64,000 bases of DNA, taken from positions 186,001 to 250,000 of the forward strand of contig NZ_QPJK01000009.1 in the NCBI RefSeq assembly GCF_003337555.1, given 5' to 3'. The DNA is from Pseudorhodoferax soli. Its GTDB lineage: Bacteria > Pseudomonadota > Gammaproteobacteria > Burkholderiales > Burkholderiaceae_C. Shown one piece after another: positions 1,998-17,609 of this stretch (position 1 is its first letter; each line of letters begins with the position of its first letter). The notes under the pieces are model-generated. The model did no database searches, was not told where the DNA came from, and was given only the letters and a program-made list of their open reading frames with translations. The translations under genes and the position numbers were made by a program.

Positions 1998-3149
1998 TCA
2001 CGCCTGGCGGGCCTGGGGCAGGGGCTCCTTGGCGGCCCCAGCGCCCGAGCGCTGCGCGGGAATCTTGCCGGCCCGGATGTCGTCATGCCAGAGCGCGTGG
2101 TGCTCCTGGGCCCAGGCGTCGCTGACGTAGCCGGTGCGCATGGCCTTGTAGGCGCCCCGCATGCCGAGCGTGCCCAGGTAGATGTGGCCGAAGAAGGCGC
2201 ACAGCATCAGCACCGCGCCCGTGGCATGGAACATGTGGGCGATCTGCATGGTGCCGCGCGTGTAGGCCAGGTTCGGCACCAGGTGGTCCAGCACCAGGCC
2301 GGAGACCACCACCGTCAGGCCCAGCGCGAACACGCCGCCCCAGAAAATGCCCTTCTCGCCGGCGTTGAAGCGGTGCGAGGGCACCTCGTGGTCGGAGAAC
2401 ATGCCGCCGGCCTTCTTCACCCAGGTCCAGTCCTCGCGGCGCGGCAGGTTGTCCTTCACGAAGGTGAAGAAGATGACCACCAGCGAGACCGCGAACAGCG
2501 GCCCCACGAAGTTGTGCAGCGTCTTGAGCCCGTAGGTGACGAGGCCGAAGACGGTGTGCCCCATCCACGGCAGCAGCAGGAACTTGCCGAAGGCCATGAC
2601 CACGCCGGAGATGCCCAGCAGCACGAAAGCGATGGCGTTGAGCCAGTGGGCGGCGCGCTCGAAGGGCGTGAAGCGCTCGATGCGCCGGCCGCCCTCGGCG
2701 CTGGCGTGCCCCATGGTGCCGCGGCCGAAGTAGAACAATGCGATGGCGACCAGCGCGATCAGCATCAGCGCGCCACCGTAGGGAATGATCACGCGGTTGC
2801 GCACCTGCCGCCAGGCTTCGCCGGCCGTGGCGTAGTCGGAGCCGGGGTAGCGCTCGAAGCGCTGGATCAGCACGCCCTTCTCCAGGCCGGGGATCTGCGT
2901 CACGCCCGCGACCTCGCCCGAGTTGCGCACGCCGCGCCAGAACGGCGCGTTGTTGCCGGGCTGCGACTTCGCCCGCGCCGCGTTGCTGTCGTCGGCCTTC
3001 GGCTCAGCCGGTGCGACGAAGCCCGGCGGTGGGCCGTTGGCCGCCGTTGCGGCGGGCTCGGTCGCGGCAGCCGGGGCAGGGGCCTGGGCCCAGGCCCCCG
3101 CAGCCCCCAGCAGGGCGACCGCGATCCAGCGGGAAAGCGCCTTGTTCAT
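1998..3149 (-). CDS. fdoI: Formate dehydrogenase gamma subunit, cytochrome b556 membrane anchor
   Basis: This subunit anchors formate dehydrogenase in the inner membrane and carries electrons through two b hemes to quinone. The 383 residues have an N-terminal signal peptide ending near AWAQ (residue 21), a roughly 100-residue periplasmic extension rich in Ala/Pro/Lys, then membrane spans near 122-141, 170-187, 213-231, 268-288 and 303-325. Candidate heme ligands are His169, His198, His212, His305/308 and His322, all within or beside spans. E. coli FdnI/FdoI have about 210-220 residues and four spans, so this is the longer type with an extra N-terminal segment. Start ATG 3149, 23 bases after the lipoprotein gene. 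The symbol follows the E. coli paralogue. Confidence 0.92.
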   Translation of the reverse strand: MNKALSRWIAVALLGAAGAWAQAPAPAAATEPAATAANGPPPGFVAPAEPKADDSNAARAKSQPGNNAPFWRGVRNSGEVAGVTQIPGLEKGVLIQRFERYPGSDYATAGEAWRQVRNRVIIPYGGALMLIALVAIALFYFGRGTMGHASAEGGRRIERFTPFERAAHWLNAIAFVLLGISGVVMAFGKFLLLPWMGHTVFGLVTYGLKTLHNFVGPLFAVSLVVIFFTFVKDNLPRREDWTWVKKAGGMFSDHEVPSHRFNAGEKGIFWGGVFALGLTVVVSGLVLDHLVPNLAYTRGTMQIAHMFHATGAVLMLCAFFGHIYLGTLGMRGAYKAMRTGYVSDAWAQEHHALWHDDIRAGKIPAQRSGAGAAKEPLPQARQA

Positions 3150-3172: not shown

Positions 3173-3409
3173 TCAGGGCGTCAGCCGCAGGTACTCGTTC
3201 TGGCCGCGGTTGCGTTGCTTGATCTGCTCGTCCCAACTGGCCTGGTCGCCGGCTTTCCAGCCCGGCGCGCTGAAGCCGGTCTGCGGGCCGTTCCAGGCCG
3301 GCGTGCTGTTGCCATGGCTGGTGCCCGCATGCTGCGGCTTCTCGCCGCAGGCGGTCAGCAGCAGCGCGGCGGTGGCCAGCGCGGTGCAGCGGATGGAGGC
3401 GCGGGCCAT
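3173..3409 (-). CDS. Small lipoprotein between FDH beta and gamma genes
   Basis: A 78-residue predicted lipoprotein: signal peptide with lipobox LLTAC, Cys21 being the lipidated residue. The mature part is short, rich in Gly, Trp, Gln and Asn, and has no other cysteine. No known family is recognised. Its ATG overlaps the stop of the beta-subunit gene as TGATG (3411-3407), indicating translational coupling; a GTG one codon earlier is possible but less likely. Placement between beta and gamma suggests a membrane-tethered partner or assembly aid of the complex on the periplasmic side; this is inference from position. Confidence 0.75.
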   Translation of the reverse strand: MARASIRCTALATAALLLTACGEKPQHAGTSHGNSTPAWNGPQTGFSAPGWKAGDQASWDEQIKQRNRGQNEYLRLTP

Positions 3410-4002
3410 CACTTGCCCGGCTTTCCGTAGGCCGTGCCCCAGCCCCAGACCTCGCTGCCCTTGCCACGGTGCAGCACGCGGGTGCGGAAGATGTCGGCCA
3501 CCACATCGCCGTCACCGCCCAGCAGCGCCTTGGTCGAGCACATCTCGGCGCAGGCCGGCAGCTTGCCTTCGGACAGCCGGTTGCGGCCGTACTTCTCGTT
3601 CTCGGCGGCGCTGCCATGCTCTTCAGGGCCGCCAGCGCAGAAGGTGCACTTGTCCATCTTGCCGCGCAGGCCGAAGGTGCCGTTGCTCGGGAACTGTGGC
3701 GCACCGAAGGGGCAGGCGTAGCTGCAGTAGCCGCAGCCGATGCACACGTCTTTGTCGTGCAGCACCACGCCCTCGTCGGTGCGGTAGAAGCAGTCGACCG
3801 GGCACACCGCCATGCAGGGCGCGTCGCTGCAGTGCATGCAGGCGACCGAGATGCTTTTCTCGCCCGGCTCGCCGTCGCCCATGGTGACCACGCGGCGGCG
3901 GTTCACGCCCCAGGGCACATCGTTCTCGGCCTTGCAGGCGGTGACGCAGCCGTTGCATTCGATGCAGCGCTCCGCGTCGCAGATGAATTTCATGCGTGCC
4001 AT
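3409..4002 (-). CDS. fdoH: Formate dehydrogenase beta subunit, 4x[4Fe-4S] ferredoxin
   Basis: Electron-transfer subunit moving electrons from the catalytic subunit to the cytochrome b subunit. Its 197 residues carry four cluster motifs: Cys13/16/19 with Cys23, Cys55/58/63 with Cys67, Cys87/90/93 with Cys97, and Cys119/122 with Cys151/155. It is shorter than E. coli FdnH/FdoH (about 300 residues), because it lacks the C-terminal transmembrane helix, so it must be held by contacts with the other subunits. The ATG at 4002 follows the alpha-subunit stop by 10 bases with GGAG just upstream. The 3' end overlaps the lipoprotein start. Confidence 0.95.
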   Translation of the reverse strand: MARMKFICDAERCIECNGCVTACKAENDVPWGVNRRRVVTMGDGEPGEKSISVACMHCSDAPCMAVCPVDCFYRTDEGVVLHDKDVCIGCGYCSYACPFGAPQFPSNGTFGLRGKMDKCTFCAGGPEEHGSAAENEKYGRNRLSEGKLPACAEMCSTKALLGGDGDVVADIFRTRVLHRGKGSEVWGWGTAYGKPGK

Positions 4003-4012
4003 GTCGTTCTCC

Positions 4013-6988
4013 TTATGCGGCCTTCTCGATCTGGCACACGGTGGTCTTGGTTTCCTGCATCATCGTGACGCTGTCGTAGCCGTAGGTGGTGGCGGTGTTG
4101 ATCGCCTCGCCGCGCACGATGGGCATCGCGCCCTCGGGGTAGTACTTGGCCAGGTCCATGCCGCCCCAGCGGCCCGAGAAGTGGAACGGCAGGAACACCG
4201 TGCCCGCGTCGACCCGCTCGGTCACGAGGGCCCGCACCTTGAGGCCCTTGAAGTCGGGCAGGGCCGCCATCGGCGGGGTCTTGACCCAGACCTGGTCGCC
4301 GTTGCGGATGCCGCGGTCGTTGGCGGCGCGCGGGTTGATCTCGACGAACATCTCCTGCTGCAACTCGGCCAGCCAGGGGTTGGAGCGCGTCTCCTCGCCG
4401 CCGCCTTCGTACTCCACCAGCCGGCCGGAGGTCATGACCAGCGGGAAGGTCTTGCCGATGTCCTTGTTCTGATCCTGCACCGTCTTGTACAGCGTGGGCA
4501 GGCGCCAGAAGGCCTTCTTGTCGTCGTGCGTCGGGTACTTGGCGACGAGGTCGGCACGCGTGCTGTACAGCGGCTCGCGGTGCTGCGGGATCGGGTCGGG
4601 GAAGTTCCAGACCACGGCCCGCGCCTTGGCATTGCCGAAAGGGTGGCAGCCGTGGTTCTTCATGGTCACGCGGATGATGGCACCCGTGGGGTCGGTCTTC
4701 CAGTTCTTGCCCTCGGCCGCCTTCTGCTCGGCTTCGCTGAGCTCACTCCACCACCCCAGTTTCTTGAGCAGCAGGTGGTCGAATTCGGGGTAGCCGGTCG
4801 TGAGGTCCGCGCCCTTGCTGTAGGAGCCGTCGGCGGCCAGCAGCGACACCCCGGCGCGTTCCACGCCGAAGTTCGCGCGAAAGTTGCCGCCGCCGTCCAT
4901 CACGTGCTGGCTGGTGTCGTACAGGTTGGCCGTGCCGGGGTGCTTCATCTCCGGCGTGCCCCAGCAGGGCCATGGCAGGCCGAAGAAGTCGCCGTCCAGC
5001 ACGTAGCCGGTCTCCTTGTCGATGCCGCCCTTGGCGCGCAGCGTCTTCACGTCGAAGACGTTCATGTTGCGCATGTGCGCCTTCAGCCGCTCGGGGCTCT
5101 GCCCGGTGTAGCCGATGGTCCAGACGCACTTGTTGATCTCGCGCAGGATGTCCTCGGGCACGGGCTCGTCCAGGCCCTTGACCTTCTGCATCTTGTAGTT
5201 CTTGACCAGCTCCTTGCCGAAGCCCAGCTTCTCGGCCAGCTGGTACATGATCATGTGGTCGCTGCGGCTTTCCCACAGCGGCTCGATCACCTTCTCGCGC
5301 CACTGCAGCGACCGGTTGGAGGCCGTGCACGAGCCGCTGGTCTCGAACTGCGTGGTCGCCGGCAGCAGGTACGTGGCGCGGTTGGGGTTGAGCTCGCCGG
5401 GCTTGCCGGGCATGGCCGCCATCGCCGCCGTGGCGCTGGGGAAGGGGTCGATCACCACCAGCAGGTCGAGCTTGTCCAGCGCGGTCTTCATCTCCAGGCC
5501 GCGCGTCTGCGAGTTCGGCGCGTGCCCCCAGAAGAACAGGCCGCGCAGGTTGCTGTCCTGGTCGATCAGTTCGTTCTTCTCGAGCACGCCGTCGATCCAG
5601 CGCGAGACCGTCATGCCGGGCTTGGTCATCATGCCCGGCGCGTACTGCTGCTTCATCCACTCGAAGTCCACGCCCCAGGTGGCCGCGAAGTGCTTGAACG
5701 CGCCTTCGGCCAGCCCGTAGTAGCCGGGCAGGGAATCCGGGTTGGGGCCGACGTCGGTGGCGCCCTGCACGTTGTCGTGGCCACGGAAGATATTGGCGCC
5801 GCCGCCCGACTTGCCGATGTTGCCCAGCGCCAGCTGCAGGATGCAGGAGGCGCGCACCATGGCGTTGCCGATGGTGTGCTGCGTCTGCCCCATGCACCAC
5901 ACCAGCGTGCTCGGCCGGTTCTCGGCCATGATCCGGGCGACCTTGAGCGTGGTGGCCTCGTCCACGCCGCAGACCTCCTGCACCTTGTCGGGCGTCCACT
6001 TGGCCAGCACCTCCTCGCGCACCTGGTCCATGCCGTAGACGCGGTCCTCCAGGTACTTCTTGTCTTCCCAGCCGTTCTTGAACACCTGGTAGAGCACGCC
6101 GAACAGGAACGCGATGTCGGTGCCCGAGCGGATGCGCACGTACTCGTCGGCCTTGGCCGCGGTGCGCGTGAAGCGCGGGTCCACGACGATCACCTTGCAG
6201 CCCGTCTCCTTGGCATGCAGCAGGTGCAGCATGGACACCGGGTGCGCCTCGGCCGCGTTGGAGCCGATGTACAGCGCCGCCTTGGCGTTCTGCATGTCGT
6301 TGTAGGAGTTGGTCATCGCGCCATACCCCCACGTGTTGGCCACGCCCGCCACCGTGGTGCTGTGGCAGATGCGGGCCTGGTGGTCGGTGTTGTTGCTGCC
6401 CCAGAACGACAGCCACTTGCGCAGCAGGTAGGCCTGCTCGTTGTTGTGCTTGGACGAGCCGACGATGAAGATGGAATCGGGCCCGCTGGCCTTCTTGAGC
6501 TCCAGCATCTTGGCGCTGATCTCGCTCAAAGCCTGGTCCCAGCCGATGCGCTCGTACTTGCCGTTGACCAGCTTCATCGGGTACTTCAGGCGGAATTCGC
6601 CATGCCCGTGCTCGCGCAGCGCTGCCCCCTTGGCGCAATGCGCCCCCAGGTTGATGGGCGAGTCGAACACCGGCTCCTGGCGGACCCACACGCCGTTCTC
6701 GACCACGGCGTCCACCGCGCAACCCACCGAGCAGTGGCCGCAGACGGTGCGCTTGACCTCGACCTTGCCCTTGCCGGTGGCCGGCGCGTCGGCCGCGGCC
6801 TCGACCTTTTTGACCAGCGTCAGCTGCGACGCGGCGATGCCGGCGCCCACGCCCAGCCCGGAGCGGCGCAGGAAGGCCCGGCGGTCGACGGTGGGCACTG
6901 CATGGGCCAGTCCACGTGCCAGCTGGGCCACCAGGCCCGAGGACATGTGCACCGGGTGCGTGGCAGAAGACTTGCGGGTGAGCAACAT
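4013..6988 (-). CDS. fdoG: Formate dehydrogenase catalytic (alpha) subunit, Cys type, Tat-exported
   Basis: Oxidises formate to carbon dioxide using a bis-molybdopterin-guanine-dinucleotide metal centre. The 991-residue protein has a twin-arginine signal (DRRAFLRR at 35-42 followed by a hydrophobic stretch), so the folded enzyme is expected on the periplasmic side. A [4Fe-4S] cluster is bound by Cys83, Cys86, Cys90 and Cys118. The metal ligand is Cys208 in RICHS, encoded by TGC, so this is the cysteine and not the selenocysteine version. The C-terminal molybdopterin dinucleotide-binding domain occupies roughly 850-980. The gene is second in its operon, 13 bases after the small Tat-region gene. 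Whether it holds molybdenum or tungsten cannot be read from the sequence; the linked tup genes suggest tungsten is possible. Confidence 0.96.
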   Translation of the reverse strand: MLLTRKSSATHPVHMSSGLVAQLARGLAHAVPTVDRRAFLRRSGLGVGAGIAASQLTLVKKVEAAADAPATGKGKVEVKRTVCGHCSVGCAVDAVVENGVWVRQEPVFDSPINLGAHCAKGAALREHGHGEFRLKYPMKLVNGKYERIGWDQALSEISAKMLELKKASGPDSIFIVGSSKHNNEQAYLLRKWLSFWGSNNTDHQARICHSTTVAGVANTWGYGAMTNSYNDMQNAKAALYIGSNAAEAHPVSMLHLLHAKETGCKVIVVDPRFTRTAAKADEYVRIRSGTDIAFLFGVLYQVFKNGWEDKKYLEDRVYGMDQVREEVLAKWTPDKVQEVCGVDEATTLKVARIMAENRPSTLVWCMGQTQHTIGNAMVRASCILQLALGNIGKSGGGANIFRGHDNVQGATDVGPNPDSLPGYYGLAEGAFKHFAATWGVDFEWMKQQYAPGMMTKPGMTVSRWIDGVLEKNELIDQDSNLRGLFFWGHAPNSQTRGLEMKTALDKLDLLVVIDPFPSATAAMAAMPGKPGELNPNRATYLLPATTQFETSGSCTASNRSLQWREKVIEPLWESRSDHMIMYQLAEKLGFGKELVKNYKMQKVKGLDEPVPEDILREINKCVWTIGYTGQSPERLKAHMRNMNVFDVKTLRAKGGIDKETGYVLDGDFFGLPWPCWGTPEMKHPGTANLYDTSQHVMDGGGNFRANFGVERAGVSLLAADGSYSKGADLTTGYPEFDHLLLKKLGWWSELSEAEQKAAEGKNWKTDPTGAIIRVTMKNHGCHPFGNAKARAVVWNFPDPIPQHREPLYSTRADLVAKYPTHDDKKAFWRLPTLYKTVQDQNKDIGKTFPLVMTSGRLVEYEGGGEETRSNPWLAELQQEMFVEINPRAANDRGIRNGDQVWVKTPPMAALPDFKGLKVRALVTERVDAGTVFLPFHFSGRWGGMDLAKYYPEGAMPIVRGEAINTATTYGYDSVTMMQETKTTVCQIEKAA

Positions 6989-7226: not shown

Positions 7227-7421
7227 CTGGCTAACCTCTCTCCGGCGCGATCGCCGGCACAGCGACACATATTACCGACCGAGCATATGACGCACCTGAA
7301 TTCCCGCATGCTGGGGATTGCCCCGATCTGTGGCGCCAGGGGGGCCAGGGCTACACTGCCGCGCATCGGCCGCACAGCGGGCCGCCAACCGGCGCCGCGG
7401 CGCCGCGGAGTGTCCACCACG
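7227..7421. promoter_or_regulatory. Divergent control region of the two formate dehydrogenase operons
   Basis: The region between the minus-strand structural operon and the plus-strand accessory operon must hold both promoters. It has an AT-rich island at about 7267-7290 (ACATATTACC, CATATGAC) in otherwise GC-rich sequence. A perfect inverted repeat, CCGGCG-CGAT-CGCCGG at 7242-7257, directly abuts the AGAGAGG ribosome-binding site of the first structural gene and would form a hairpin in its leader. No convincing -35/-10 pair could be assigned by eye. Confidence 0.5.
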
Positions 7422-7913
7422 GTGTTCTCGAACGAGCTTCCTCCCTGCATGTGCGTCGCGGTGCGCATCGACCGCCTGCGGCAACCCAGCCGCTGGGAGG
7501 AGTGGCGTTTCAGCATCGCCGAGGTCGTTGCCGACGATGGCGGCTTCGGCAGCGCCCCCCGGCTGCTGCGCGACGACGGCCGCTGCGCGCAGTGGCTGTT
7601 CCCCGGCCTGCCCGTCACCCTGCACCGCGATGAGGCCGAGGGCTATTATCTCAACCTCAGTTCCGGCGGGCCCGTCTGGTTCGTCATGTGGCGCATCGAC
7701 CACGCCGACCCATCGCGCGCCTGGCCCGAGATCGTGACCCTCTCCTACAACGAGGCCGGCCGCTTGCTCGACGCGCAGGAGCGCGTGGACAACTGCCCGC
7801 TGGACGAGCGCGTGCGCGCCGCGCTGCAGGATTTCGTCGACGTGCACTACCGGCCCGAGCCCAAGCGGCGCAAGCGCCCGGCGTCCTTCGTTGCGCCGCA
7901 AGAGCGGCGCTGA
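7422..7913 (+). CDS. DUF3305 family protein
   Basis: A cytoplasmic protein of about 163 residues matching the DUF3305 type commonly found with formate dehydrogenase genes in Proteobacteria; its biochemical role is unknown. The core reads WEEWRFSIAEVV, then YYLNLSSGGPVWFVMWR and a C-terminal basic tail. The start is uncertain: GTG at 7422 has GGAG 11 bases upstream; ATG 7449 and GTG 7410 are alternatives, and a longer frame from 7287 would run through the divergent promoter region. It leads the accessory operon and is followed 3 bases later by its usual partner DUF3306, so a joint role in enzyme maturation is likely but inferred. Confidence 0.78.
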   Translation: MFSNELPPCMCVAVRIDRLRQPSRWEEWRFSIAEVVADDGGFGSAPRLLRDDGRCAQWLFPGLPVTLHRDEAEGYYLNLSSGGPVWFVMWRIDHADPSRAWPEIVTLSYNEAGRLLDAQERVDNCPLDERVRAALQDFVDVHYRPEPKRRKRPASFVAPQERR

Positions 7914-7916
7914 GCC

Positions 7917-8489
7917 ATGGCACAGGACAGCGGCTTTCTCGCGCGCTGGTCGCAGCGCAAGGTGCAGGCGCGCCAGGGCGGCGAGCTGCCCGAGATGCCT
8001 GCGCCCCTGGCCGCGCCCGCAGCCGCCGTGGTGCCTGCCGAAGCGCCGCCGGCCGCGCCCGAGCCGGCCACGCCGCCACTGCCCACCCTGGACGACGTGA
8101 CGCAGCTGACCGGCGACTCGGACTTCTCGCGCTTCGTCGCGCCCGAGGTCAGCGGCGAGGTGCGCAACGCCGCGCTCAAGAAGCTGTTCAGCGATCCGCA
8201 CTTCAACGTGATGGATGGGCTGGACACCTACATCGACGATTACAACAAGCCCGACCCGCTGCCCGCAGCCATGCTGCGCCAGATGGCACAGGCCGCCTAC
8301 CTCGGCCTGGTCTCCCCCGAGACCGAACCCGCACAGACGGGTACGCCGGCAGCCGGCCTGCAGCTTGCGCCTGCGGCCGTGATGGAGCCCCACGATGAAG
8401 ACCCTGATCTGCGACTGCAACCGCTCCATGACCCTGGACCGCCCGGCCCTGAGCCGGGCACTGGCGGCAACGCCGGCGGCCAGTGCTGA
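7917..8489 (+). CDS. DUF3306 family protein
   Basis: A 190-residue cytoplasmic protein of the DUF3306 type, partner of the preceding DUF3305 gene. It begins GFLARWSQRK, a typical N-terminus, then has an Ala/Pro-rich linker (residues 30-58) and a conserved block with SDFSRFVAPEVSGEVR and LKKLFSDPHFNVMDGLDTYIDDY. The last 32 codons overlap the start of the next gene by 95 bases in a different frame; the C-terminal Gly/Pro-rich residues from that overlap look dispensable. No enzymatic motif is visible. Function unknown, association with formate dehydrogenase from context. Confidence 0.83.
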   Translation: MAQDSGFLARWSQRKVQARQGGELPEMPAPLAAPAAAVVPAEAPPAAPEPATPPLPTLDDVTQLTGDSDFSRFVAPEVSGEVRNAALKKLFSDPHFNVMDGLDTYIDDYNKPDPLPAAMLRQMAQAAYLGLVSPETEPAQTGTPAAGLQLAPAAVMEPHDEDPDLRLQPLHDPGPPGPEPGTGGNAGGQC

Positions 8490-10560
8490 GGGCATTGCCG
8501 ACGTCCACTCCGCCCTGTGCCGGCGCGAGGCCCCGGCCTTCCAGCGCGCCGCCAGGTCGGGCGAGGAATTGCTGATCGGCTGCACGCAGGAAAGCCGGCT
8601 GTTCCTGGAGTTGGCCGAGCAGACCGAAGGCGCGCCGCCGCTGGCCGAACGGCCGATCCGCTTCTTCAACCTGCGCGAGACCGGCGGCTGGTCGCGCGAT
8701 GGCGCGGCGGCCACGCCCAAGCTGGCGGCGCTGATCGCCGCAGCCCAGCTGCCGCCGCCCGAGCCGGTGGCCACTGTGGGCTACCGCTCGGCCGGCCGCT
8801 GCCTGGTCGTCGGGCCGGCCGCGCGCGCCGAGGCCGCCGCGGCGCTGCTCGGCGATGCGCTCGATCTCACGTTGCTGGTCGATGGCGGCGCGCTGGCACA
8901 GCGGCACGACCAGGTGGTGCTGCGCGGCCGGCTCACGCGCCTGACGGGCTGGCTGGGCACTTTCGAGGCCGGCTGGCAGAGCGCCAACCCCATCGACCTG
9001 GACCTGTGCACGCGCTGCAATGCCTGCATTGCGGCCTGCCCCGAGGGCGCGATCGATTTCAGCTACCAGGTCGACCTGGCGCGCTGCACGGCCCACCGCG
9101 ACTGCGTGGCCGCCTGCCAGGCCGCTGGCGCGATCGACTTCGGGCGCAACGCGCGCAACGAGGAGGCGCGGTTCGACCTCGTGCTGGACCTCGGCGAGCT
9201 GCCCACGTTGGCCATGCACCAGCCGCCGCAGGGCTACGTCCATGTGCCGCCCGGTGCGCCGCTCACGCAGGCGGTGCTGCAGCTGCGCGGCTGGGTGGGC
9301 GAGTTCGACAAGCCACGCTTCTTCCGCTACGAGCAGCGGCTGTGCGCCCACACGCGCAACCAGCAGGTCGGCTGCTCGGCCTGCATCGACGTGTGCTCGG
9401 CGCAGGCCATCCGCTCCGACGCCTCGCTCAAGGGCAAGACGGCGGCGCGCGGGCGCGGCAGCGTGGGCCACCCGACCGCGGGCATCGTGGTGGAGCCGCA
9501 CCTGTGCGTGGGCTGCGGCGCCTGCGGCACGGTCTGCCCCAGTGGCGCGCTGAGCTTCGCCTACCCCACGCCTGCTGACCTGGGCAAGCGCGTGCGCACG
9601 CTGCTGCGCACCCATGCTGCGGCCGGCGGCCGCGATGCGGCCCTGCTGCTGCACAGCCAGGAAGAGGGTACGGCGGCCATCGAGTCCCTGGGCCGCGCGG
9701 CCAGCATCGGCCGGGCCCATGGCGTGCCGGCCCGCGTGCTACCGCTGGCCGTGTGGCACAGCGCCAGCGTGGGGCTGGACGTGTGGCTGGCCGCGCTGGC
9801 GCAGGGCGCCAGCCAGGTCTGGGTGCTGACCGGCAGCACCGAGGCGCCGCAGTACCTGCAGGCCCTGGCCGCGCAGATGGCCCAGGCCCAGGCCATCGTG
9901 CACGGGCTGGGCTATGCCGGCCAGCATTTCCGGTTGATCCCGGCGGGCGACACCGCCGCGTTGGACGAAGCCTTGCGCGCGCCGCCGGCCCAGGGCGTGG
10001 CCCAGGCCGCCAGCTTCGTCGTACAGGCCGACAAGCGCAAAACGCTCGAGCTCGCGCTGGCCCACCTGCTGGCGCAGAGCCCGCAGGCTGTGCCGGAGGC
10101 CATCGCACTGCCCGCGCCAGGGGCGCTGTACGGCAGCGTGCGCGTCGATGCGGCCAAGTGCACGCTGTGCCTGGCCTGCGTGGGCGCCTGCCCCTCGCAG
10201 GCACTGTCCGACAACCCCGACCAGCCGCAGCTGCGCTTCACCGAGAAGAGCTGCGTGCAGTGCGGCCTGTGCCAGACCACCTGCCCGGAGGACGCGATCC
10301 GCCTGGAGCCGCGCCTGCTGCTGGCCGACGGTGGCCGCGCGCGCGCGCAGGCCCGGGTGCTGCACGAGGCGGAGCCCTTCCATTGCGTGCGCTGCGCCAA
10401 GCCTTTCGGCACGCTGCGCGCCATCGAGACCATGCTCACCAAGCTGGCCGGCCACGCCGCCTTCCAGGGCGCGGCGGCCGAGCGGCTCAAGATGTGCAGC
10501 GATTGCCGCGTCGTCGACATGTACTCCAACCCCCAAGAACTCCGCATCACCGACCTGTGA
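8395..10560 (+). CDS. Polyferredoxin-like 4Fe-4S protein of the formate dehydrogenase accessory operon
   Basis: A 721-residue cytoplasmic iron-sulfur protein. It starts with a small Cys-containing module ([18 protein letters not shown]). A first ferredoxin unit follows with Cys205/208/211/215 and a degenerate partner Cys231/237/241, then Cys317/327/330/334, [12 protein letters not shown] near 371-381, a pair near 589-599 and 620-630 ([12 protein letters not shown] and [12 protein letters not shown]), and finally two C-terminal CxxC pairs near 664/667 and 701/704 that look like a zinc or rubredoxin-type site. A non-cluster domain lies at about 395-580. This suggests a cytosolic electron conduit or maturation factor for formate dehydrogenase; the actual partner is unknown. 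It overlaps the upstream gene by 95 bases and the next by 4 (GTGA). Confidence 0.88.
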
Positions 10561-11162
10561 CCACCGAGACCTTCAGCGAAGAAATCGCGCGCGCCGAGCT
10601 GTACGGCCTGCTGGCACGCCTGTGGCTGGCGCCGCCAGACGCCGCCTTGTTGGCGCAGTTCCGGGTGGCGGTGACCGAGGCGCCCGAGCCTGGCAGCTTC
10701 CTGGAGGCACCGTGGCAGGCGCTGGTGGCGCAGATGCGCGCGGCCACGCCGGCTTCGGCGCAGGACGAGTTCGCCGCGCTGTTCCAGGGCGTGGGCAAGC
10801 CCGAGGTCTTTCCCTATGCCTCGTTCTTCCTCGCCGGCTTCGTCAACGAAAAGCCGCTGGCGCGCCTGCGCGAAGACCTGGCAGCCCTGGGGCTCACGCG
10901 CGATGCGGCGCAGTTCGAGACCGAGGACCATGTCTCCTACGTGCTGGAAGTCATGCGCTACCTGATCGCGGGCGAGGGCGGCGCGGCGGGCAACCTGGCG
11001 CAGCAGCACCGCTTTTTCCGCGCGCACGTGCAGCCCTGGATCGAGCCGCTGTGCCAGGCGGTCGACGACCAGCCCGCCGCCCGGCTGTGGCGCGCCATCG
11101 CGGCCATGACACTGGCCTTCGTCCAGGTCGAGACGCAGGCCTTCGACCTCATCGACACATGA
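10557..11162 (+). CDS. TorD/DmsD-like redox enzyme maturation chaperone
   Basis: A 201-residue all-helical chaperone of the TorD family, which binds molybdoenzyme precursors in the cytoplasm and prevents their export before the cofactor is in place. Family-like segments are [18 protein letters not shown] at the N-terminus, [20 protein letters not shown] near the middle, and [15 protein letters not shown], with [11 protein letters not shown] further on. It starts at a GTG overlapping the stop of the polyferredoxin gene (GTGA) and ends overlapping the mobA start (ATGA). The likely client is the Tat-dependent alpha subunit encoded at 4013-6988. Confidence 0.88.
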
Positions 11163-11767
11163 ACACCATCGCACGCGAAGACATCACCGGCCTGGTGCTG
11201 GCCGGCGGCCGCGGCAGCCGCATGGGCGGCGTCGACAAGGGCCTGCAGAACCACCGCGGCATGCCGCTGGCCCTGCATGCGTTGCTGCGCCTGCAGCCGC
11301 AGGTGGGCACCAGCATGGTCAGCGCCAACCGCAACCTGTCGGCCTACGAGGCCATGGGCGTGCCGGTCTGGCCCGATTCGGTGGAGGGCTACGCCGGCCC
11401 GCTGGCCGGCCTGCTGACGGGGCTGGAGCATGCCGAGACGCCCTGGCTGGTCACGGTGCCCTGCGACACGCCGGACTTCCCGACCGACCTCGTCGAACGC
11501 CTGGCGGCGGCCGCCGTGGCGCAGGACGCCGAGATCGCCATGGCGGCCACGCTGGAAGACGGCCGGCTGCGCGCGCAGCCCGTGTTCTGCCTGCTGCGCA
11601 CCGAGCTGGTCGAGAGCCTGGTGGCCTTCCTGCACACGGGCGAGCGCAAGTTCGGGCTGTGGGCCGACCGGCACCGCAAGATCGAGCTGCCATTCGACGA
11701 CACGGCGGCCTTCTTCAACGCCAACACGCTGCAGGAGCTGCAGCAGCTGCAGCAGCTGCTGCGCTGA
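11159..11767 (+). CDS. mobA: Molybdenum cofactor guanylyltransferase MobA
   Basis: MobA attaches GMP from GTP to Mo-molybdopterin, giving the guanine dinucleotide form needed by formate dehydrogenase. The 202-residue length is normal. The nucleotide-binding signature [18 protein letters not shown] is at 13-30, followed by SANRNLSAY, the WPDS segment and the [11 protein letters not shown] block with the metal-binding aspartate. The ATG at 11159 overlaps the chaperone stop. The 3' end contains a CTGCAG-rich repeat encoding [11 protein letters not shown]. Last gene of the plus-strand accessory operon. Confidence 0.95.
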
Positions 11768-11770
11768 AGC

Positions 11771-12889
11771 TCAACGCTTCGACCGCGCGTAGCGCCACCA
11801 GGGCAGCGCCCGCGTGAGCGCCAGCACCTCGCCCGGCTGCTGCACGCCGTAACCCGGCAGCCCGGCCAGCGCCGCGGCCCAGGCCGGCGAGGCCAGGCGC
11901 GTGCGCAGGGCCTGCAGCGGCGGCGTCTCCAGGTCTTGCTTGCGGCACACCAGGTAGTAGTTCTCGTCGACCAGCGGCGCGAACGACAGGCCCGCCTCGG
12001 CGGCCGCGGCCTCGATGCCGATGCCCACGTCCGCCGCGCCGGCGGCGATGGCCGCGGCCACGGCCACGTGCGTGTCTTCCGTGTGGGTGGTGTAGCCCGG
12101 CACATCTTCGGGTGCCACGCCGTCCTGGGCCAGCAGGTGGTCCGTCAGCATCCGCGTGCCCGAGGAGGGCTGGCGCGCAACGAAGCGCCAGCGGCCCGTG
12201 CGCAGCGCGGCGATGCCCTCGGGCCGCTTCTCGCCAGGGCGCCAGATCCAGCCCTGGCGCCGCCAGTGGCTGCCGATCAGCTTGTGCTCGCCGGGCTGCA
12301 GCAGCGGGCGCAGCGCGCGCGCCATCACGCTCTCCGGCGCGGCGGCCTGCGCCACGTGGAAGCCGGCAACGCGGCAGCGGCCTTCGCCCAGCGCACGCAG
12401 CGCCTCCTGGCTGCCGGCGAAGCGCAGGCCGATGTGCAGGCCGTCGTGTTCCTCGGCCAGGGCCTGCAGCCGTGGCAGGCCCAGGTCGTGGCTGGCGAAG
12501 ATCTCCAGCACCTGCAGCGCGGCGTCGTCGGCCAGCGCGAACACGCGCGCCAGTTCAGCCCGCAGCGCCTCCACATGCGGCGTCATGCGCACGCGCGCCT
12601 GGCGCTCGGCCCACAGCAGGCGCTGCGCGAACGGCGTCAGCCGTGCGTGGCGGCCCTGGCCCCACAGCACCAGCGGCGCACCCAGCACCTCTTCCCAGTG
12701 CTTGAGCGCGCCCCAGGCGTGGCGGTAGGAGATGCTTTGCGCACGCGCAGCGGCGCTGATGGAGCCCTCGGCCTGCAGAGCCGAGAGCAGGTCGAACAAG
12801 GGGTTCTCGATCTCGGCGCGCTGCTGGCCGTGGGTCTCGGCGGTCTCGAAGGTGTAGCGCAGGTGGATGCCGCGGCGGGAAGAAGGCAT
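11771..12889 (-). CDS. ModE-like HTH regulator fused to a periplasmic-binding-protein-like domain
   Basis: A 372-residue predicted cytoplasmic regulator. Residues about 28-95 resemble the winged-helix DNA-binding domain of ModE (GSISAAARAQSISYRHAW, then LTPFAQRLL). Instead of the molybdate-binding TOBE pair, residues about 125-345 form a binding-protein-like domain with SSGTRMLTDHLL and the run GAADVGIGIEAAAAEAGL. The same motifs occur in the C-terminal part of the MoeA fusion at 13847-15772. It lies 45 bases downstream of tupA on the same strand, so it probably controls uptake or cofactor genes in response to an oxyanion or a pterin ligand; the ligand is not known. Confidence 0.85.
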   Translation of the reverse strand: MPSSRRGIHLRYTFETAETHGQQRAEIENPLFDLLSALQAEGSISAAARAQSISYRHAWGALKHWEEVLGAPLVLWGQGRHARLTPFAQRLLWAERQARVRMTPHVEALRAELARVFALADDAALQVLEIFASHDLGLPRLQALAEEHDGLHIGLRFAGSQEALRALGEGRCRVAGFHVAQAAAPESVMARALRPLLQPGEHKLIGSHWRRQGWIWRPGEKRPEGIAALRTGRWRFVARQPSSGTRMLTDHLLAQDGVAPEDVPGYTTHTEDTHVAVAAAIAAGAADVGIGIEAAAAEAGLSFAPLVDENYYLVCRKQDLETPPLQALRTRLASPAWAAALAGLPGYGVQQPGEVLALTRALPWWRYARSKR

Positions 12890-12934
12890 GGGCGGATCTG
12901 GCGAAGGGGCCGCAGTGTCCCACGGCCGCCCCCG

Positions 12935-13753
12935 TCAATTGCCGGCGTTCGGAAAGAACAACTGCTCGCCGCCGATGGTGTAGGAGGCGATGGCGGTTTG
13001 CCCCGCCGGCGAGACCACCCAGTCGGAAAAGCCCTGCGCCAGGTCCTTCTTCACGTGCGGATGCCTGGCGGGGTTCACCACGATCACGCCGTACTGGTTG
13101 AACAGCTGCTTGTCGCCTTCGACCAGGATGCCCAGGTCGGCCCGGTTCTTGAAGTTCAGCCAGGTGGCGCGGTCGGCCAGCACATAGGCGCCGGTGGAGG
13201 CCGCGATGTTCAGGGCCGGCCCCATGCCGCAGCCGCATTCCTTGTAGCCCGCGGGCTTGGCTGCGGCCAGGTCGACACCGGCCAGCTTCCACTGGCGCAG
13301 CTCGGCCGAATGGGTGCCGCTCTTGTCGCCGCGCGAGACGAAGCCGGCTCCCGTGTCGGCCAGCCGCTTGAGCGCGGCGGCGATGTTGCTGCCGCGCGTG
13401 CCGGCCGGGTCGGCCTTGGGGCCGATGAGCACGAAGTCGTTGTACATCACGGCGCGGCGCTCCAGGCCGAAGCCTTCGGCCACGAACTTCTCCTCGGCCG
13501 GCTGGTCGTGCACGAACAGCGCATCGGCGTCGCCGCGGCGTGCCATGTCCAGCGCCTGGCCGGTGCCGACGGCCACCACGCGCACCGCGGTGCCGCTGGC
13601 CTGCGTGAACTGCGGCAGCAGGTGTTTGAACAGGCCGGACTGCTCCGTCGAGGTGGTCGAGGCCAGCACGATGAATTTGTCCTGCGCCTGCACGGCGCAG
13701 GCGAGCAGGGCGGCGGGCAGGGCGAGGAGCAGGAAGCGTTTGCGCAGCAGCAT
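12935..13753 (-). CDS. tupA: Tungstate-binding periplasmic protein TupA
   Basis: Substrate-binding protein of a tungstate ABC importer. The 272-residue precursor has a signal peptide (about 1-23, ending AVQAQD) and then VLASTTSTEQSGL, close to the TTTS anion-binding motif of TupA proteins, and later RGDKSGTHSAE, the second anion-contacting loop. CGCGMGPALN and the ARHPHVKK segment are also typical. It is separated from the tupB-like permease by over 12 kb and by the accessory operon. Neighbours are the HTH-PBP regulator downstream and the MoeA fusion upstream. Confidence 0.9.
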   Translation of the reverse strand: MLLRKRFLLLALPAALLACAVQAQDKFIVLASTTSTEQSGLFKHLLPQFTQASGTAVRVVAVGTGQALDMARRGDADALFVHDQPAEEKFVAEGFGLERRAVMYNDFVLIGPKADPAGTRGSNIAAALKRLADTGAGFVSRGDKSGTHSAELRQWKLAGVDLAAAKPAGYKECGCGMGPALNIAASTGAYVLADRATWLNFKNRADLGILVEGDKQLFNQYGVIVVNPARHPHVKKDLAQGFSDWVVSPAGQTAIASYTIGGEQLFFPNAGN

Positions 13754-13846
13754 CGGGGCGGTGCCTTGGGAAGGAAGAGGAGGGCCGATTCTGGTGGCCC
13801 GTCTTCCTCTGCGCGATATGAACGGCGCTGCATAGGCGCCGTCGGG

Positions 13847-15772
13847 TCAGCCGCCCGGGTCGACGCGAAAGCCCAGTTCGCGCAACGCGGCGCGTGCCGC
13901 GTCGGAGCGCAGCAGCGCGAGAAAGGCCTGCACCGGCGCACGGGCCAGCCGGTCCCGGGGCAGCACGAAGTCGTAGCGCTCCTCCTGCACCGGGATGAAG
14001 CCCAGCCCGTACTGCCGCGCCACCGTGTCGATGGCCAGGCCCCAGTCGGCGCGGCCCTGCGCCACGGCCACCGCCACCGCGTTGTGCGATTTGGTCTGCA
14101 CGCCGTAGCCCGCGGGCTGGGCGCCTTCGAGCAGCCGGTCGATGAGGATGCGCGTGCCGCTGCCGGCGTTGCGGTTGACCATCGCGCAACCCGCCTCGCT
14201 GCGGGCCGTGGCCATGGCCGCTGCCGCGTCGCGGCCCTCGAAACGCGCATCGCCGCGGCGGTAGACGACGCCCTGCATGCGGCCGTAGCCCGGCACCAGT
14301 TCCAGCGCGGGCGTCAGCAGATGCGTGTTGTAGACGCCCGTGGCCGGGTCCATGAGGTGGATGCCGCCCAGGTCGCATTCGCCGCGTTTGGCGGCCATCA
14401 GACCGCCCGTGCTGCCCACGCTCATGCTCTTGATGCGCAGGCCCTGGCGCACCAGCTGGCCGGCCAGCCAGTCCAGGCCCACGCAGTGGCTGCCCACCAG
14501 GATCAGGTCGGCGGCCTGCAGGCCCTGCCCGAGCAGCTGCACCTGCACCGGCGCGCCCGCGTCGAGGATCTCGGTGTGCTGGCCGATGGTGATGAAGCCG
14601 TCGGCGCTGCTGAAGGTGGTGACCGAGCCCGAGCCCTTGCCCATGGGGTAGGCGGCCAGGCCCCGCTCGCCGGGCACCAGGCCCACCAGCAGGTATTCGG
14701 TGCGGCCGCGTTCGGAGTTCACGCGCATGGGCAGCGTCGCATCGACGAGCTGGCGCTGTTCGGGCGGCCGGCCGGCGAAGGCGCGGATGACGGGCGCCAT
14801 GAACTCGTGGAAGGTGAACACCGCCGAGGTCGGAAAACCCGGCAGGATCACCACCGGCTTGCCCTGCGTGACGGCCAGGCACACCGGCTTGCCGGGCTTG
14901 AGCGCCACGCCATGCGCGACCACGCCCGGGTCCTGCAAGGCGGCCACGATGCGGTAGGACAGATCGCCCTCGCCCTTGGAGGTGCCGCCGGAGAAGACCA
15001 CGGCATCGCAGGCGAGGCCCTGGCGCAGCGCGGCCGACAGCCGGGCCTCGTTGTCCGGAACCACGCCCAGGCGCACGGGCTCGCCACCCAGCTCCTCGAC
15101 GGCGGCCGCGAGGATGGCGGCATTGGAGTCGTACACCGCGCCCACGGGCAGTGGCGCGCCAGGCGCGACGATCTCGTTGCCAGTGGAGAAGATGGCCACG
15201 CGCGGCCGCCGGTGCACGGGCACCTGGTCCAGGCCCAGCGCCGCGAGCACGCCGATCTCGCGCGAGCTCAGCGGCTGGCCCGCGCGCAGCACGGTCTCGC
15301 CGCGCGCGATGTCGGTGCCGGCGTAGCTCACGTTCTCGCCCGCCGTGGCCGCACGGCGCACCACCAGGCGGCCGCCCTCCATGTCTGTGTGCTCCACCAT
15401 CACCACCGCATCGGCGCCGCGCGGCAGCATGCCGCCGGTGGCGATGGGCGTGGCGGTGCCGGCCGTCACCTCGGCCTGCGGCACGATGCCCGGCGCCAGC
15501 GTCTCGGCCGTGGGCGACAGCCGGCGCGGCTCCTCCTCCATCGCGCCCCAGGTGTCGCCGGCCCGCACGGCGAAGCCGTCCACGTTGGAGCGGTCGAAGC
15601 CGGGCACGTCGACGGTGGCGACCACATCCTCGGCGAGCACGCGGCCCAGCGCGGCATGCAGTGCCACGGTCTCGGCGCCCAGGGGCGCCAGGGTCAGGTG
15701 TTCGCGGAAGCGGCGCTCGGCCTCGTCGCGCGTGAGGACCTGCAGGAACTGGGATTGGGCTTTCACGGGCAT
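13847..15772 (-). CDS. moeA: Molybdopterin molybdenumtransferase MoeA fused to a PBP-like domain
   Basis: MoeA inserts molybdate or tungstate into adenylylated molybdopterin. Residues about 10-405 are a complete MoeA: VPGFDRSNVDGFAVR near 55, the metal-insertion region PIATGGMLPRGADAVVMVEHT, STGNEI, and the MoCF loop VFSGGTSKGEGDLSY. Residues about 425-641 form a periplasmic-binding-protein-like domain without a signal peptide, containing NAGSGTRILIDRLL and HNAVAVAVAQGRADWGLAI. Such MoeA-PBP fusions are known. The ATG at 15772 overlaps the end of the upstream moeA by 10 bases. The PBP part may sense or deliver oxyanion; this is inferred. Confidence 0.92.
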   Translation of the reverse strand: MPVKAQSQFLQVLTRDEAERRFREHLTLAPLGAETVALHAALGRVLAEDVVATVDVPGFDRSNVDGFAVRAGDTWGAMEEEPRRLSPTAETLAPGIVPQAEVTAGTATPIATGGMLPRGADAVVMVEHTDMEGGRLVVRRAATAGENVSYAGTDIARGETVLRAGQPLSSREIGVLAALGLDQVPVHRRPRVAIFSTGNEIVAPGAPLPVGAVYDSNAAILAAAVEELGGEPVRLGVVPDNEARLSAALRQGLACDAVVFSGGTSKGEGDLSYRIVAALQDPGVVAHGVALKPGKPVCLAVTQGKPVVILPGFPTSAVFTFHEFMAPVIRAFAGRPPEQRQLVDATLPMRVNSERGRTEYLLVGLVPGERGLAAYPMGKGSGSVTTFSSADGFITIGQHTEILDAGAPVQVQLLGQGLQAADLILVGSHCVGLDWLAGQLVRQGLRIKSMSVGSTGGLMAAKRGECDLGGIHLMDPATGVYNTHLLTPALELVPGYGRMQGVVYRRGDARFEGRDAAAAMATARSEAGCAMVNRNAGSGTRILIDRLLEGAQPAGYGVQTKSHNAVAVAVAQGRADWGLAIDTVARQYGLGFIPVQEERYDFVLPRDRLARAPVQAFLALLRSDAARAALRELGFRVDPGG

Positions 15773-17016
15773 TCGTACAGATGGACGGTCACTTCGCTGC
15801 CGGCCCCGTGGCCCTCGCTCTCTGCCGGCACCACGACGAAGCCGTCGGCCCGCACCGTGGAGCTCAGCACCGAGGCGCCCGACAGTGCGATGGGCTCCAC
15901 GCCATCGGCGCCGAGCTTCACGCGCACATAGTCGACGCGGCCGACCTGCGAGACGATCTTGCGCGCCAGCACGGCCTGCACGCGCGGATAGGGCCAGCCA
16001 TCGGGCCGGCCGCCCAGGCGCCGGATGGCGCGGCCGGCGAAGAAGTCGTAGGCGCACAGGCACGACACCGGGTTGCCCGGCAGCAGGAACACCAGCGCCG
16101 CGCCGATGCGGCCCATGCCGGCCGGACTGGAGGGCCGCATGGCGATGCCGTGGATGGCCAGCTCGCCGAGGCGGGCCAGCAGGCGCGGCGCATGGTCTTC
16201 GGCGCCCACGCTGGAGCCGCCCGAGACCAGCACCACGTCCGCGCCCGGCGCGGCCAGCGCCTGTGCGATCCGCTCCGGATCGTCGCCCAGGCGCAGGTGC
16301 GACTCGAGCAGGCCGCCATCGCGCGCCACCAGGCCGCGCAGCGTGACGGAGTTCGCGTCGTAGATCTCGTGCGGGCCCTTGGCCTGGCCCGGCGCGCGCA
16401 CCTCGTTGCCCGTCACCAGCAGGCGCACGCGCGGCTGGCGCAGCACCTGCACCTGGGCCAGGCCCAGAGAGGCGACGAGGCCGGCGTCCTGCGCGCGCAG
16501 CCGCCGGCCCGCTGCCAGCGCCTGGCTGCCGCGCGCGATGTCCTCGCCCACGCGGCCCACATGCTGGCCGGGCGCCACCGGCTGGGCGACGGCCACGCGG
16601 CCGTGCTCCTCGCGTGCGTACTCGGCGGGCAGCACGGCGTCCAGCCCGGCCGGCACGGGCGCCCCGGTCATGATGCGGACCGCCGAGCCCGCGGGCACTG
16701 CGCCCTCGAACGGCCGGCCGGGGAAGGCCTGGCCCACGACCGCGAACTCCAGCGGGTTGTAGTCGCCCGCGCCGGTGGTCTCGCCGCCGCGCAGCGCGTA
16801 GCCGTCCATGGCTGCACGGTCGAACTCGGGCACGGCGATGGGGGCGACGAGGTCCTGCACGAGCACGCGGCCGGTGGCGTCTTCGGTGGCCACCGGTTCG
16901 CCTGCGAGGCAGGGCGTGTGGGCGTCGATCCAGGCGAGTGCGGCGGGCACTTCGGCGCGCTGTGTGAAGCCGCGCATGCGCACATCGGTGGTGGAGACAG
17001 GGTCGGTCGGCTGCAT
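15763..17016 (-). CDS. moeA: Second molybdopterin molybdenumtransferase, MoeA type
   Basis: A 417-residue MoeA of standard length, first of two tandem moeA genes. Visible landmarks: EFDRAAMDGYALRG near 60-73, MTGAPVPAGLDAVLPAE, LLVTGNEV, the MoCF loop LVSGGSSVGAEDHA, and LPGNPVSCLCAYDFF. The PBP extension of its neighbour is absent. The ATG at 17016 is used; an ATG 39 bases downstream (MRGFTQ) also fits. TATACT at 17029-17024 lies only 7 bases before this ATG, so a leaderless transcript is possible. Having two MoeA proteins may separate molybdenum from tungsten insertion, as reported for some organisms; here that is inference. Confidence 0.92.
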   Translation of the reverse strand: MQPTDPVSTTDVRMRGFTQRAEVPAALAWIDAHTPCLAGEPVATEDATGRVLVQDLVAPIAVPEFDRAAMDGYALRGGETTGAGDYNPLEFAVVGQAFPGRPFEGAVPAGSAVRIMTGAPVPAGLDAVLPAEYAREEHGRVAVAQPVAPGQHVGRVGEDIARGSQALAAGRRLRAQDAGLVASLGLAQVQVLRQPRVRLLVTGNEVRAPGQAKGPHEIYDANSVTLRGLVARDGGLLESHLRLGDDPERIAQALAAPGADVVLVSGGSSVGAEDHAPRLLARLGELAIHGIAMRPSSPAGMGRIGAALVFLLPGNPVSCLCAYDFFAGRAIRRLGGRPDGWPYPRVQAVLARKIVSQVGRVDYVRVKLGADGVEPIALSGASVLSSTVRADGFVVVPAESEGHGAGSEVTVHLYECP

Positions 17017-17060: not shown

Positions 17061-17609
17061 TCAGCCGCCCGGCGGCAGGGATTCGGCGCCCGCCAGGTCC
17101 TCGTACCACAGGAAGGCATCGCAGCTGCCGGCCCAGTGGCGGTTGGTGTTGGGCCGCGTGCCCACGCCCACCAGCCGGCGGCCCGCCGCGTGGATCTTCT
17201 GCGCCAGCGGCAGGAAGTCGCTGTCGCCGCCCACCACCACCACGGTGCGGATGTGCGGGAAGCGCGCGAGGTCTTCCAGCGCGTCCAGGCTCAGCCGGAT
17301 GTCGGCGCCGTTCTTGGCCGCGCCGCCGGGCGGGAACATCTGCACCAGGTCCATGCCGGCCTGCATCAGCGCATCGCGGTAGCGGCTGAAGAACTGCCAG
17401 TTGCAGTAGGCACGGTGGATGGCCAGCGGGCCCTGGGCAATGGCCGCGGCGGTGACGGCCGCCACGTCGACCAGCGGCTCCTGCAGCTTGAAGCGCACGT
17501 CGGGCTTGGCGTAGTGGCCTTCGCCCAGGCGCGCCTCGACCAGGCTGGCGTGCAGGTTCTCGAAATCCCAGTACAGGGCAACGCGGGGCTGGTCGTGGTC
17601 ATGGGGCAT
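17061..17609 (-). CDS. NYN domain protein (PIN-like nuclease fold)
   Basis: A 182-residue cytoplasmic protein of the NYN (LabA/DUF88) family, a PIN-like nuclease fold expected to cleave RNA with metal ions. Acidic motifs are in place: ALYWDFENLHASL (residues 11-23), GADIRLSLDAL near 101-111 and VVVVGGDSDFLPL near 123-135. No extra domain is attached. The gene follows trehalase by 24 bases and precedes moeA by 44 bases on the same strand, but nothing ties it functionally to either. The substrate is unknown. Confidence 0.86.
   Translation of the reverse strand: MPHDHDQPRVALYWDFENLHASLVEARLGEGHYAKPDVRFKLQEPLVDVAAVTAAAIAQGPLAIHRAYCNWQFFSRYRDALMQAGMDLVQMFPPGGAAKNGADIRLSLDALEDLARFPHIRTVVVVGGDSDFLPLAQKIHAAGRRLVGVGTRPNTNRHWAGSCDAFLWYEDLAGAESLPPGG

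Follow-up and report, generated by a model that had tools for sequence, protein, structure and literature searches.

A candidate tungstate- or molybdate-responsive regulator of uptake and formate dehydrogenase genes in Pseudorhodoferax soli

Which ligand could a DNA-binding protein and a cofactor-assembly enzyme encoded side by side have in common, and which genes would such a protein control? The question is raised by a 64-kb stretch of the 8.16-Mb genome of Pseudorhodoferax soli (contig NZ_QPJK01000009.1, positions 186001-250000; hereafter the window). Within 4 kb, it encodes an exported tungstate-binding protein (TupA), a regulator joining a helix-turn-helix (HTH) head to a periplasmic-binding-protein (PBP)-like domain of the family PF12727 (HTH-PBP), and the insertase MoeA with a PF12727 domain at its C-terminus (MoeA-PBP). 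An initial annotation had interpreted them as three related binding modules forming a linked circuit of regulator, insertase, and transporter. All three proteins are encoded where it had placed them, on the minus strand, with profile support, although it had left out a second MoeA and a TupB-TupC fusion at the left edge of the window.

By computation, we established the domains of these proteins, the homology of and the residues shared by the two PF12727 domains, and an operator together with its conservation. From these features we infer operator binding, the ligand, and the direction of regulation, and on the whole we lean towards HTH-PBP being a tungstate- or molybdate-responsive regulator of uptake and formate dehydrogenase (FDH). 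The central features are the following.

11771-12889, minus strand: HTH-PBP regulator, 372 amino acids, ModE/LysR-like HTH and PF12727 PBP-like domain (profile matches; no signal peptide seen)
12935-13753, minus strand: TupA, exported tungstate-binding protein (profile and solved-structure matches)
13817-13834: predicted operator, perfect TATG-N10-CATA, in the gap between the MoeA-PBP gene and tupA, 64-81 bp upstream of the tupA start
13847-15772, minus strand: MoeA-PBP fusion, PRK14498, with PF12727 at residues 443-621 (profile matches)
15763-17016, minus strand: second, plain MoeA, overlapping the start of the MoeA-PBP gene (profile matches)
7270-7287: predicted operator with one mismatch, in the divergent gap between the FDH and DUF3305 genes

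The genes are thus transcribed in the order MoeA, MoeA-PBP, TupA, and HTH-PBP, the last following tupA after 45 bp. The genome as a whole holds one TupA, three MoeA-type genes, and two HTH-PBPs.

One domain in a regulator and an insertase

HTH-PBP matches PF12727 with 165 bits (cut-off 27) and HTH_1 with 31.7 bits (cut-off 26.6), and domain profile searches detected neither an HTH_17 head nor a TOBE/Mop sensor domain. Its score against the ModE_N-like repressor-domain model TIGR00637 (43.7 bits) lies under the cut-off of 98.5, and that against LysR_substrate (28) equals the cut-off of 28. Among solved structures, the head is closest to 2ijl (E 0.0006), with ModE itself (1b9m and 1o7l) reaching only E ~0.1. 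In Foldseek searches, the AlphaFold model (mean predicted local distance difference test score, pLDDT, 90.0) grouped by fold with full-length LysR regulators. MoeA-PBP matches PRK14498 over its full length with 753 bits against a curated cut-off of 534 and contains PF12727 at 163 bits.

The two PF12727 domains align by BLASTP at E 5e-19 with 34% identity over 221 columns, and we therefore regard them as homologous rather than similar by chance. The motifs by which the initial annotation had connected them, SGTRxLxDxLL, GxADxG, and GLxFxP, are indeed present in both. The modeled domain of MoeA-PBP (mean pLDDT 89.8) retrieved phosphate receptors including PstS, TupA (5my5, rank 9), ModA (4rxl and 3gzg), and other PBPs, as well as the anion-sensing domains of LysR regulators for sulfite and azide.

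TupA stands apart. It matches solved TupA chains (5my5, from Desulfovibrio alaskensis, E 4e-68; 3lr1, E 3e-70), scores 212 bits against NF041772, below the 400-bit cut-off, and begins with a stretch that is hydrophobic by eye. Its SRGDKSGTH segment carries the SGTH loop on which a relationship to the cytoplasmic domains had been proposed, and aligns with the R118/T124 loop (SRGDxSGT) of the Desulfovibrio alaskensis TupA. However, TupA belongs to PF12849 and not to PF12727, it gave no significant alignment with HTH-PBP, and its best alignment with MoeA-PBP (E 3e-4) left the SGT loops of the two unpaired. On this basis, we ruled out TupA being a further copy of the domain. Gene order, residue conservation, and the conserved operator support a linked circuit of regulator, insertase, and transporter; the PF12727 domain is common to the first two and absent from TupA.

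A predicted palindromic operator shared by tup and fds loci

Comparative promoter analysis makes it very probable that HTH-PBP recognizes TATG-N10-CATA and that its own gene, tup, and FDH genes are under its control. Among 300 genomes of the order, 193 match HTH-PBP at E 1e-3, a count that takes in MoeA-PBP and HTH-only proteins. We inspected 80 regions (83 HTH-PBP genes), hand-picked out of the roughly 95 matches that were listed with E values up to 1.5e-47; at least nine of those matches were omitted. HTH-PBP genes are divergent from tup or from fds, the operon of NAD-linked FDH, in 63 of the 83 cases, 24 of them directly from tupBC/tupA and 39 from fdsG. The other 20 have TupA (4), an FDH gene (8), or neither (8) in view, and one of these last eight (L092) adjoins MoeA and MoeA-PBP. 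A further 80 regions (L106-L185) were the best matches to an fds-type alignment, for which reason the pooled fds count (87 of 166 genes) is inflated. An apparent fusion of HTH-PBP and MoeA in one 824-residue frame (L084) was rejected because a stop codon separates the two.

After removal of 17 redundant sequences from 109 divergent gaps, 92 were counted, 22 tup-linked and 70 fds-linked. TATG-N10-CATA occurs without mismatch in 17 of the 22 and 43 of the 70, respectively, compared with means of 0.1 and 0.5 in dinucleotide shuffles, and spacings of 8, 9, 11, and 12 occur 0-3 times. Over 142 non-redundant upstream regions, a gap of 10 was found in 90, and each of the other spacings between 4 and 31 in 0-7. 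When the flanking and inner columns are included, the dyad lengthens to roughly ATATGCA-N6-TGCATAT. ModE sites, TATATA-N6-TATATA, form the same 18-bp dyad.

The whole window contains one perfect site (0.2 in shuffles) and four sites with at most one mismatch (2.2 in shuffles). The perfect site upstream of tupA therefore stands out, whereas the site at 7270-7287 rests on its conserved place. Of the two intergenic regions that the initial annotation had singled out for footprinting, 7227-7421 holds the latter site, but 12890-12934, between tupA and the HTH-PBP gene, contains no operator with up to one mismatch; the main site lies at 13817-13834.

In the genome as a whole, the simple pattern occurs seven times (four times for the reversed control), once at tupA and once, perfectly, between a molybdopterin oxidoreductase (PF00384) gene and an ordinary LysR gene (contig C4, position 517969; L186). 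A refined pattern, TATGMW-N6-WKCATA, has a single occurrence in the genome, before tupA. Across 18 genomes selected for having HTH-PBP, the refined pattern gave 20 sites in 11 genomes, compared with seven for a gap-11 control and two for the reversed control. Four sites came without a locus. Twelve of the 16 examined sites lie at molybdenum or tungsten genes: seven at HTH-PBP loci, like those that gave the motif, and five elsewhere, namely at aldehyde oxidoreductase (AOR) operons (L195 and L204, the latter with AFOR_N at 270 bits and its site 3.5 kb from an HTH-PBP locus), at FDH genes (L197 and L199), and at mop-modA (L207; TOBE). No molybdenum or tungsten gene was seen in the seven control loci, examined by reading of open reading frames and by tblastn with molybdenum and tungsten queries holding no AOR or mod gene.

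Relatives also retain the operator. Matches at E 1e-60, with up to 92% identity, are present in 131 of the 299 genomes of the family, and 20 regions were read. The gene order of the window is kept in two genomes of the same genus (L285 and L286) and on a plasmid of Diaphorobacter sp. HDW4B (L255, NZ_CP049906.1), all three of which have both operator positions. The site upstream of tupA reads ATATGAACGGCGCTGCATAG in the window and ATAGGAACGGCGCTGCATAG (twice) and ATATGAACTCTGGAGCATAA in these relatives; the site in the FDH/DUF3305 gap reads ATATTACCGACCGAGCATAT in the window and ATATTACCGTTTGAGCATAT (twice) and ATATGATCGCTTGAGCATAT in the relatives. The half-sites are largely kept, and the centers vary.

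Eleven of the 20 regions were uninformative, ten showing no tup or FDH promoter and one (L303) having its tup operon cut. In tallies that include the window and the Diaphorobacter plasmid, the upstream DNA of ten tup operons is in view. Each of the ten carries, no farther than about 150 bp from the tblastn match, a site with zero or one mismatch, and eight of these sites are perfect. All five FDH/DUF3305 gaps carry such a site as well, one of them perfect. Such a site is found in 0.5-0.9% of random 150-bp stretches. The plasmid location in Diaphorobacter, together with a genome of the genus (G544) that gave no match at E 1e-60, indicates that the module may move between strains. Operator-like sites were also observed just upstream of ferredoxin-type, FDH-beta-like matches at position 12969 of L292 (one mismatch) and position 14538 of L303 (perfect), which are possibly AOR operons.

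Two kinds of locus serve as natural negatives. On a Variovorax plasmid that has FDH, MoeA, MoeA-PBP, TupA, and TupBC genes, with no HTH-PBP in view, a perfect site is absent, and the two one-mismatch matches both fall inside coding genes. Seven tupABC loci (L245-L251) with divergent, short ModE-like HTH-only proteins lacking a sensor domain contain no perfect TATG-N10-CATA. These proteins end, by eye, soon after the HTH, and we rejected them as full ModE. MoeA-PBP is found elsewhere in five of the seven genomes, and such a freestanding head may borrow its sensor. The second HTH-PBP of P. soli (P0005; contig C14, 9587-10675 of L020) is divergent from an FdhF/YdeP-type oxidoreductase (TIGR01701, 969 bits); the N10 operator is absent from the upstream regions of this gene and of its subgroup, and its own upstream region contains TATG-N16-CATA.

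What the shared domain may sense

We moderately favor a tungstate or molybdate oxyanion as the ligand of HTH-PBP. It is the most likely candidate because the operator follows tungsten and molybdenum uptake, storage, and enzymes, some of which do not use formate. The conserved residues are compatible with such a ligand. We compared 29 tup-linked HTH-PBPs, a group defined by neighborhood of which three rows (L047_0, L047_1, and L073_0) fall in the fds-rich branch of the tree, with 63 fds/FDH-linked HTH-PBPs and nine MoeA-PBPs. R210, G213, R239, R246, H274, and E309 (HTH-PBP numbering) are invariant across all three groups, and S133, H134, H178, Q212, G244, T245, and Y311 are 94-100% conserved, T245 being absent only from about 2% of the fds group. 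In the D. alaskensis TupA, R118 and T124 are likely ligand residues, and changes of R118 alter tungstate and molybdate binding (PMC5517513). Judged by sequence, through the same R-x5-T spacing, R239 and T245 are the equivalents of this pair. At position 135, beside S133-H134, 97% of the tup group have D, all of the fds group have G, and all MoeA-PBPs have C.

In the mechanism we propose, HTH-PBP, as an FdsR-type factor, would bind the palindrome before tupA, with which its own gene lies, and that in the divergent FDH/DUF3305 promoter, while its cytoplasmic PBP domain would sense the supply of tungstate or molybdate. Under metal scarcity, it would permit expression of the uptake genes; with metal at hand, it would shut uptake off and adjust the FDH genes. 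By analogy with TaoR, HTH-PBP may act in the presence of metal as a repressor of uptake and an activator of the enzyme.

On the side of the insertase, MoeA-PBP, in concert with the plain MoeA, would use its C-terminal domain for capturing or delivering the metal or for gating the reaction. The PRK14498 cut-off was passed in nine of the 300 genomes of the order, a plain MoeA match lying next door in all nine. TupA is present in eight of these (G212 being the exception), compared with 89 of the 300 overall, in agreement with the 86% co-occurrence of MoeA-PBP and TupA given in PMC11733289. That study proposed, from models and co-occurrence, that the domain serves metal capture and channeling. In Desulfovibrio vulgaris, both moeA (DVU2990) and the PF12727-bearing moeA-2 (DVU0951) are required for the tungsten cofactor of Aor (PMC10102598), which suggests that the two may cooperate instead of serving as alternatives for different metals.

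A wider scheme can be offered only tentatively. One cytoplasmic PBP domain might be a common gauge of insertable tungsten or molybdenum: fused to MoeA it would feed the insertase, and fused to a ModE-like head it would read the same pool and drive the TATG-N10-CATA regulon of uptake, storage, and tungsten or molybdenum enzymes. FdsR, regarded as a formate regulator, would then have branched off later, its specificity shifting with position 135.

Several observations weigh against the proposed mechanism. The characterized relative FdsR answers to formate and not to metal (PMC7057948). The residues common to regulator and insertase include three arginines and three histidines. The TupA site in PMC5517513 has fewer, so the ligand could be larger. 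The perfect operator is missing from 52 of the 142 upstream regions; the FDH operator of the window contains a mismatch, and of the five FDH/DUF3305 gaps, four offer nothing closer than a one-mismatch site. Finally, five of the seven simple sites in the genome and four of the 16 refined-site loci are near no recognized molybdenum or tungsten gene.

The alternative suggested by FdsR is that HTH-PBP senses formate and turns on FDH and metal uptake together, metal not being the signal. We consider this unlikely, although FdsR makes it a serious competitor. For the FdsR/P_H16_RS03165 system of Cupriavidus necator, which is active in Escherichia coli, formate gives a 4.5-fold induction with a Km of 130 uM (PMC7057948). 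In Cupriavidus sp. D384, a PF12727-containing HTH-PBP is divergent from fdsG and fdsB (by Pfam), followed by a gene taken for fdsA from its size and location and by a homologue of FdhD (26%), and by this neighborhood it occupies the FdsR position. The window cluster encodes an FDH, and the operator is common to fds- and tup-linked genes.

However, for 21 of the 24 tup-divergent HTH-PBP genes, no FDH gene is in view, and among the genes preceded by the operator are AOR and mop-modA, neither of which uses formate. Furthermore, the regulator of the window groups outside the fds-rich branch: in a quick tree of 104 rows, 63 fds/FDH-linked rows fall in a branch of 70 (Shimodaira-Hasegawa-like approximate likelihood ratio test, SH-aLRT, 97), whereas HTH-PBP belongs to a 15-row branch with 12 tup-linked rows (support 96). 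It can be aligned over its full length to fds-linked members, with 31-38% identity to 52 fds-type relatives, and is 46-51% identical to its closest tup-linked relatives within the order; the two groups are further divided by D and G at position 135. Support for the order of events, tup first and fds later, is weak because the tree was rooted through the MoeA PBP domain, whose branch is very long.

A second alternative, rather improbable in our view yet kept serious by MoeA, places the shared ligand on the pterin side (molybdopterin, molybdopterin-AMP, or the metallated cofactor), such that the regulator would sense finished or unfinished cofactor. MoeA, to which the domain is also fused, handles molybdopterin-AMP; the three arginines and three histidines are common to regulator and insertase; and in the AlphaFold dimer of an archaeal MoeA-PBP homologue, a continuous groove runs from the PBP site to the MoeA active site (PMC11733289). 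The tie to tungstate transport argues instead for the oxyanion, and among the best 50 Foldseek matches of the MoeA domain, the top ranks are mostly binders of small ligands, with no pterin binder. That the domain is a relic or a ligand-free dimerization module, with the regulator answering to something else, is very improbable: the copy in the window departs from the consensus at positions such as A238 and W214, but S133, H134, H178, R210, Q212, R239, G244, T245, R246, H274, E309, and Y311 are 94-100% conserved in all three groups.

Gene neighborhood and known systems

The remaining genes form two groups. A plus-strand group converges on the HTH-PBP gene; past the divergent gap, the minus strand encodes a small protein of twin-arginine-translocation type (by eye), the FDH subunits, FdhD, and the TupB-TupC fusion.

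1-657, minus strand: TupBC permease-ATPase in one 494-residue frame, crossing the left edge of the window to contig position 185173 (NF038017, 204 bits; PF00005, 93 bits)
719-1540, minus strand: FdhD (PF02634, 251 bits)
2001-3149, minus strand: FDH gamma (cytochrome b)
3409-4002, minus strand: FDH beta (4Fe-4S)
4013-6988, minus strand: FDH alpha (TIGR01591, 460 bits, below the cut-off of 666; PF00384, 170 bits)
7449-7913, plus strand: DUF3305 protein
7917-8489, plus strand: DUF3306 protein
8395-10560, plus strand: multi-cluster 4Fe-4S protein of the FDH cluster (profile matches)
10557-11162, plus strand: TorD-like chaperone (scores below curated cut-offs)
11159-11767, plus strand: MobA (TIGR02665, 222 bits)
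17061-17609, minus strand: NYN-domain protein (putative nuclease), directly upstream of moeA on the same strand

The TupB permease and TupC ATPase are thus fused and sited after FdhD, away from tupA (7173-8657 in L019). Single tblastn matches cover both halves in L038 as well, and the Variovorax plasmid has one annotated open reading frame of the size of the fusion after TupA. Within the FDH operon of L254, a beta-lactamase CAE-1 predicted in PLSDB (4496-4747) looks like a misannotation because its open reading frame has only 83 residues.

The claim of the initial annotation that such a system had not been described went too far, since MoeA-PBP with its link to TupA and tungsten (PMC11733289), TaoR (PMC11980592), and FdsR are known, as is ModE. 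Compared with FdsR, HTH-PBP has the same HTH and PF12727 architecture as the protein at the fdsR position of Cupriavidus sp. D384, close kin of which (L071 and L175) carry the same type of operator upstream. On the other hand, FdsR is divergent from the NAD-linked fds operon, whereas the gene in the window follows tupA in another FDH cluster, and its product, which has D and not G at position 135, belongs to the tup-linked branch. TaoR is, like HTH-PBP (PF12727, 165 bits), an HTH and PBP regulator and is tied to a tungsten enzyme (PMC11980592), but TaoR-type heads, such as that of the HTH_17 and PF12727 protein of P. acidaminophilum, are HTH_17 and not HTH_1/ModE-like. ModE has a related HTH and, should the metal interpretation hold, a comparable role in physiology; it senses through TOBE/Mop domains, which HTH-PBP does not have. 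FdsR of C. necator is said to go back to Oh and Bowien (1999), and the TaoR family to Rajeev (2019).

The MoeA-PBP of the window resembles those of PRK14498, PMC11733289, and PMC10102598 (DVU0951) in its full-length match and its co-occurrence with TupA. It differs in standing beside a regulator with the same domain, a link that the available parts of the latter two accounts do not mention. In Methylorubrum extorquens, the cluster moeA1-mobB-tupBCA similarly places an insertase with a tungstate transporter serving a tungsten FDH, and no regulator is discussed in the available part of that account (PMC13197769). Our literature search found no report of FdsR-type proteins having a MoeA-type PBP domain, nor of a tup-linked HTH-PBP branch, a ModE-headed PBP regulator, or this operator, which does not prove that none exists.

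A PF12727 domain common to a regulator and the neighboring insertase, together with a matching DNA signal, opens the ligand of this domain to experiment. Because the regulator carries the conserved residues of the insertase and has a defined operator, a ligand that changes the output of a reporter would be a candidate for the insertase, too. Position 135 is one residue that may set the specificity. FdsR, named as a formate regulator, is joined by these comparisons to genes for tungsten uptake, with a predicted regulon that includes FDHs, and tungsten FDHs are of practical interest for the reduction of CO2.

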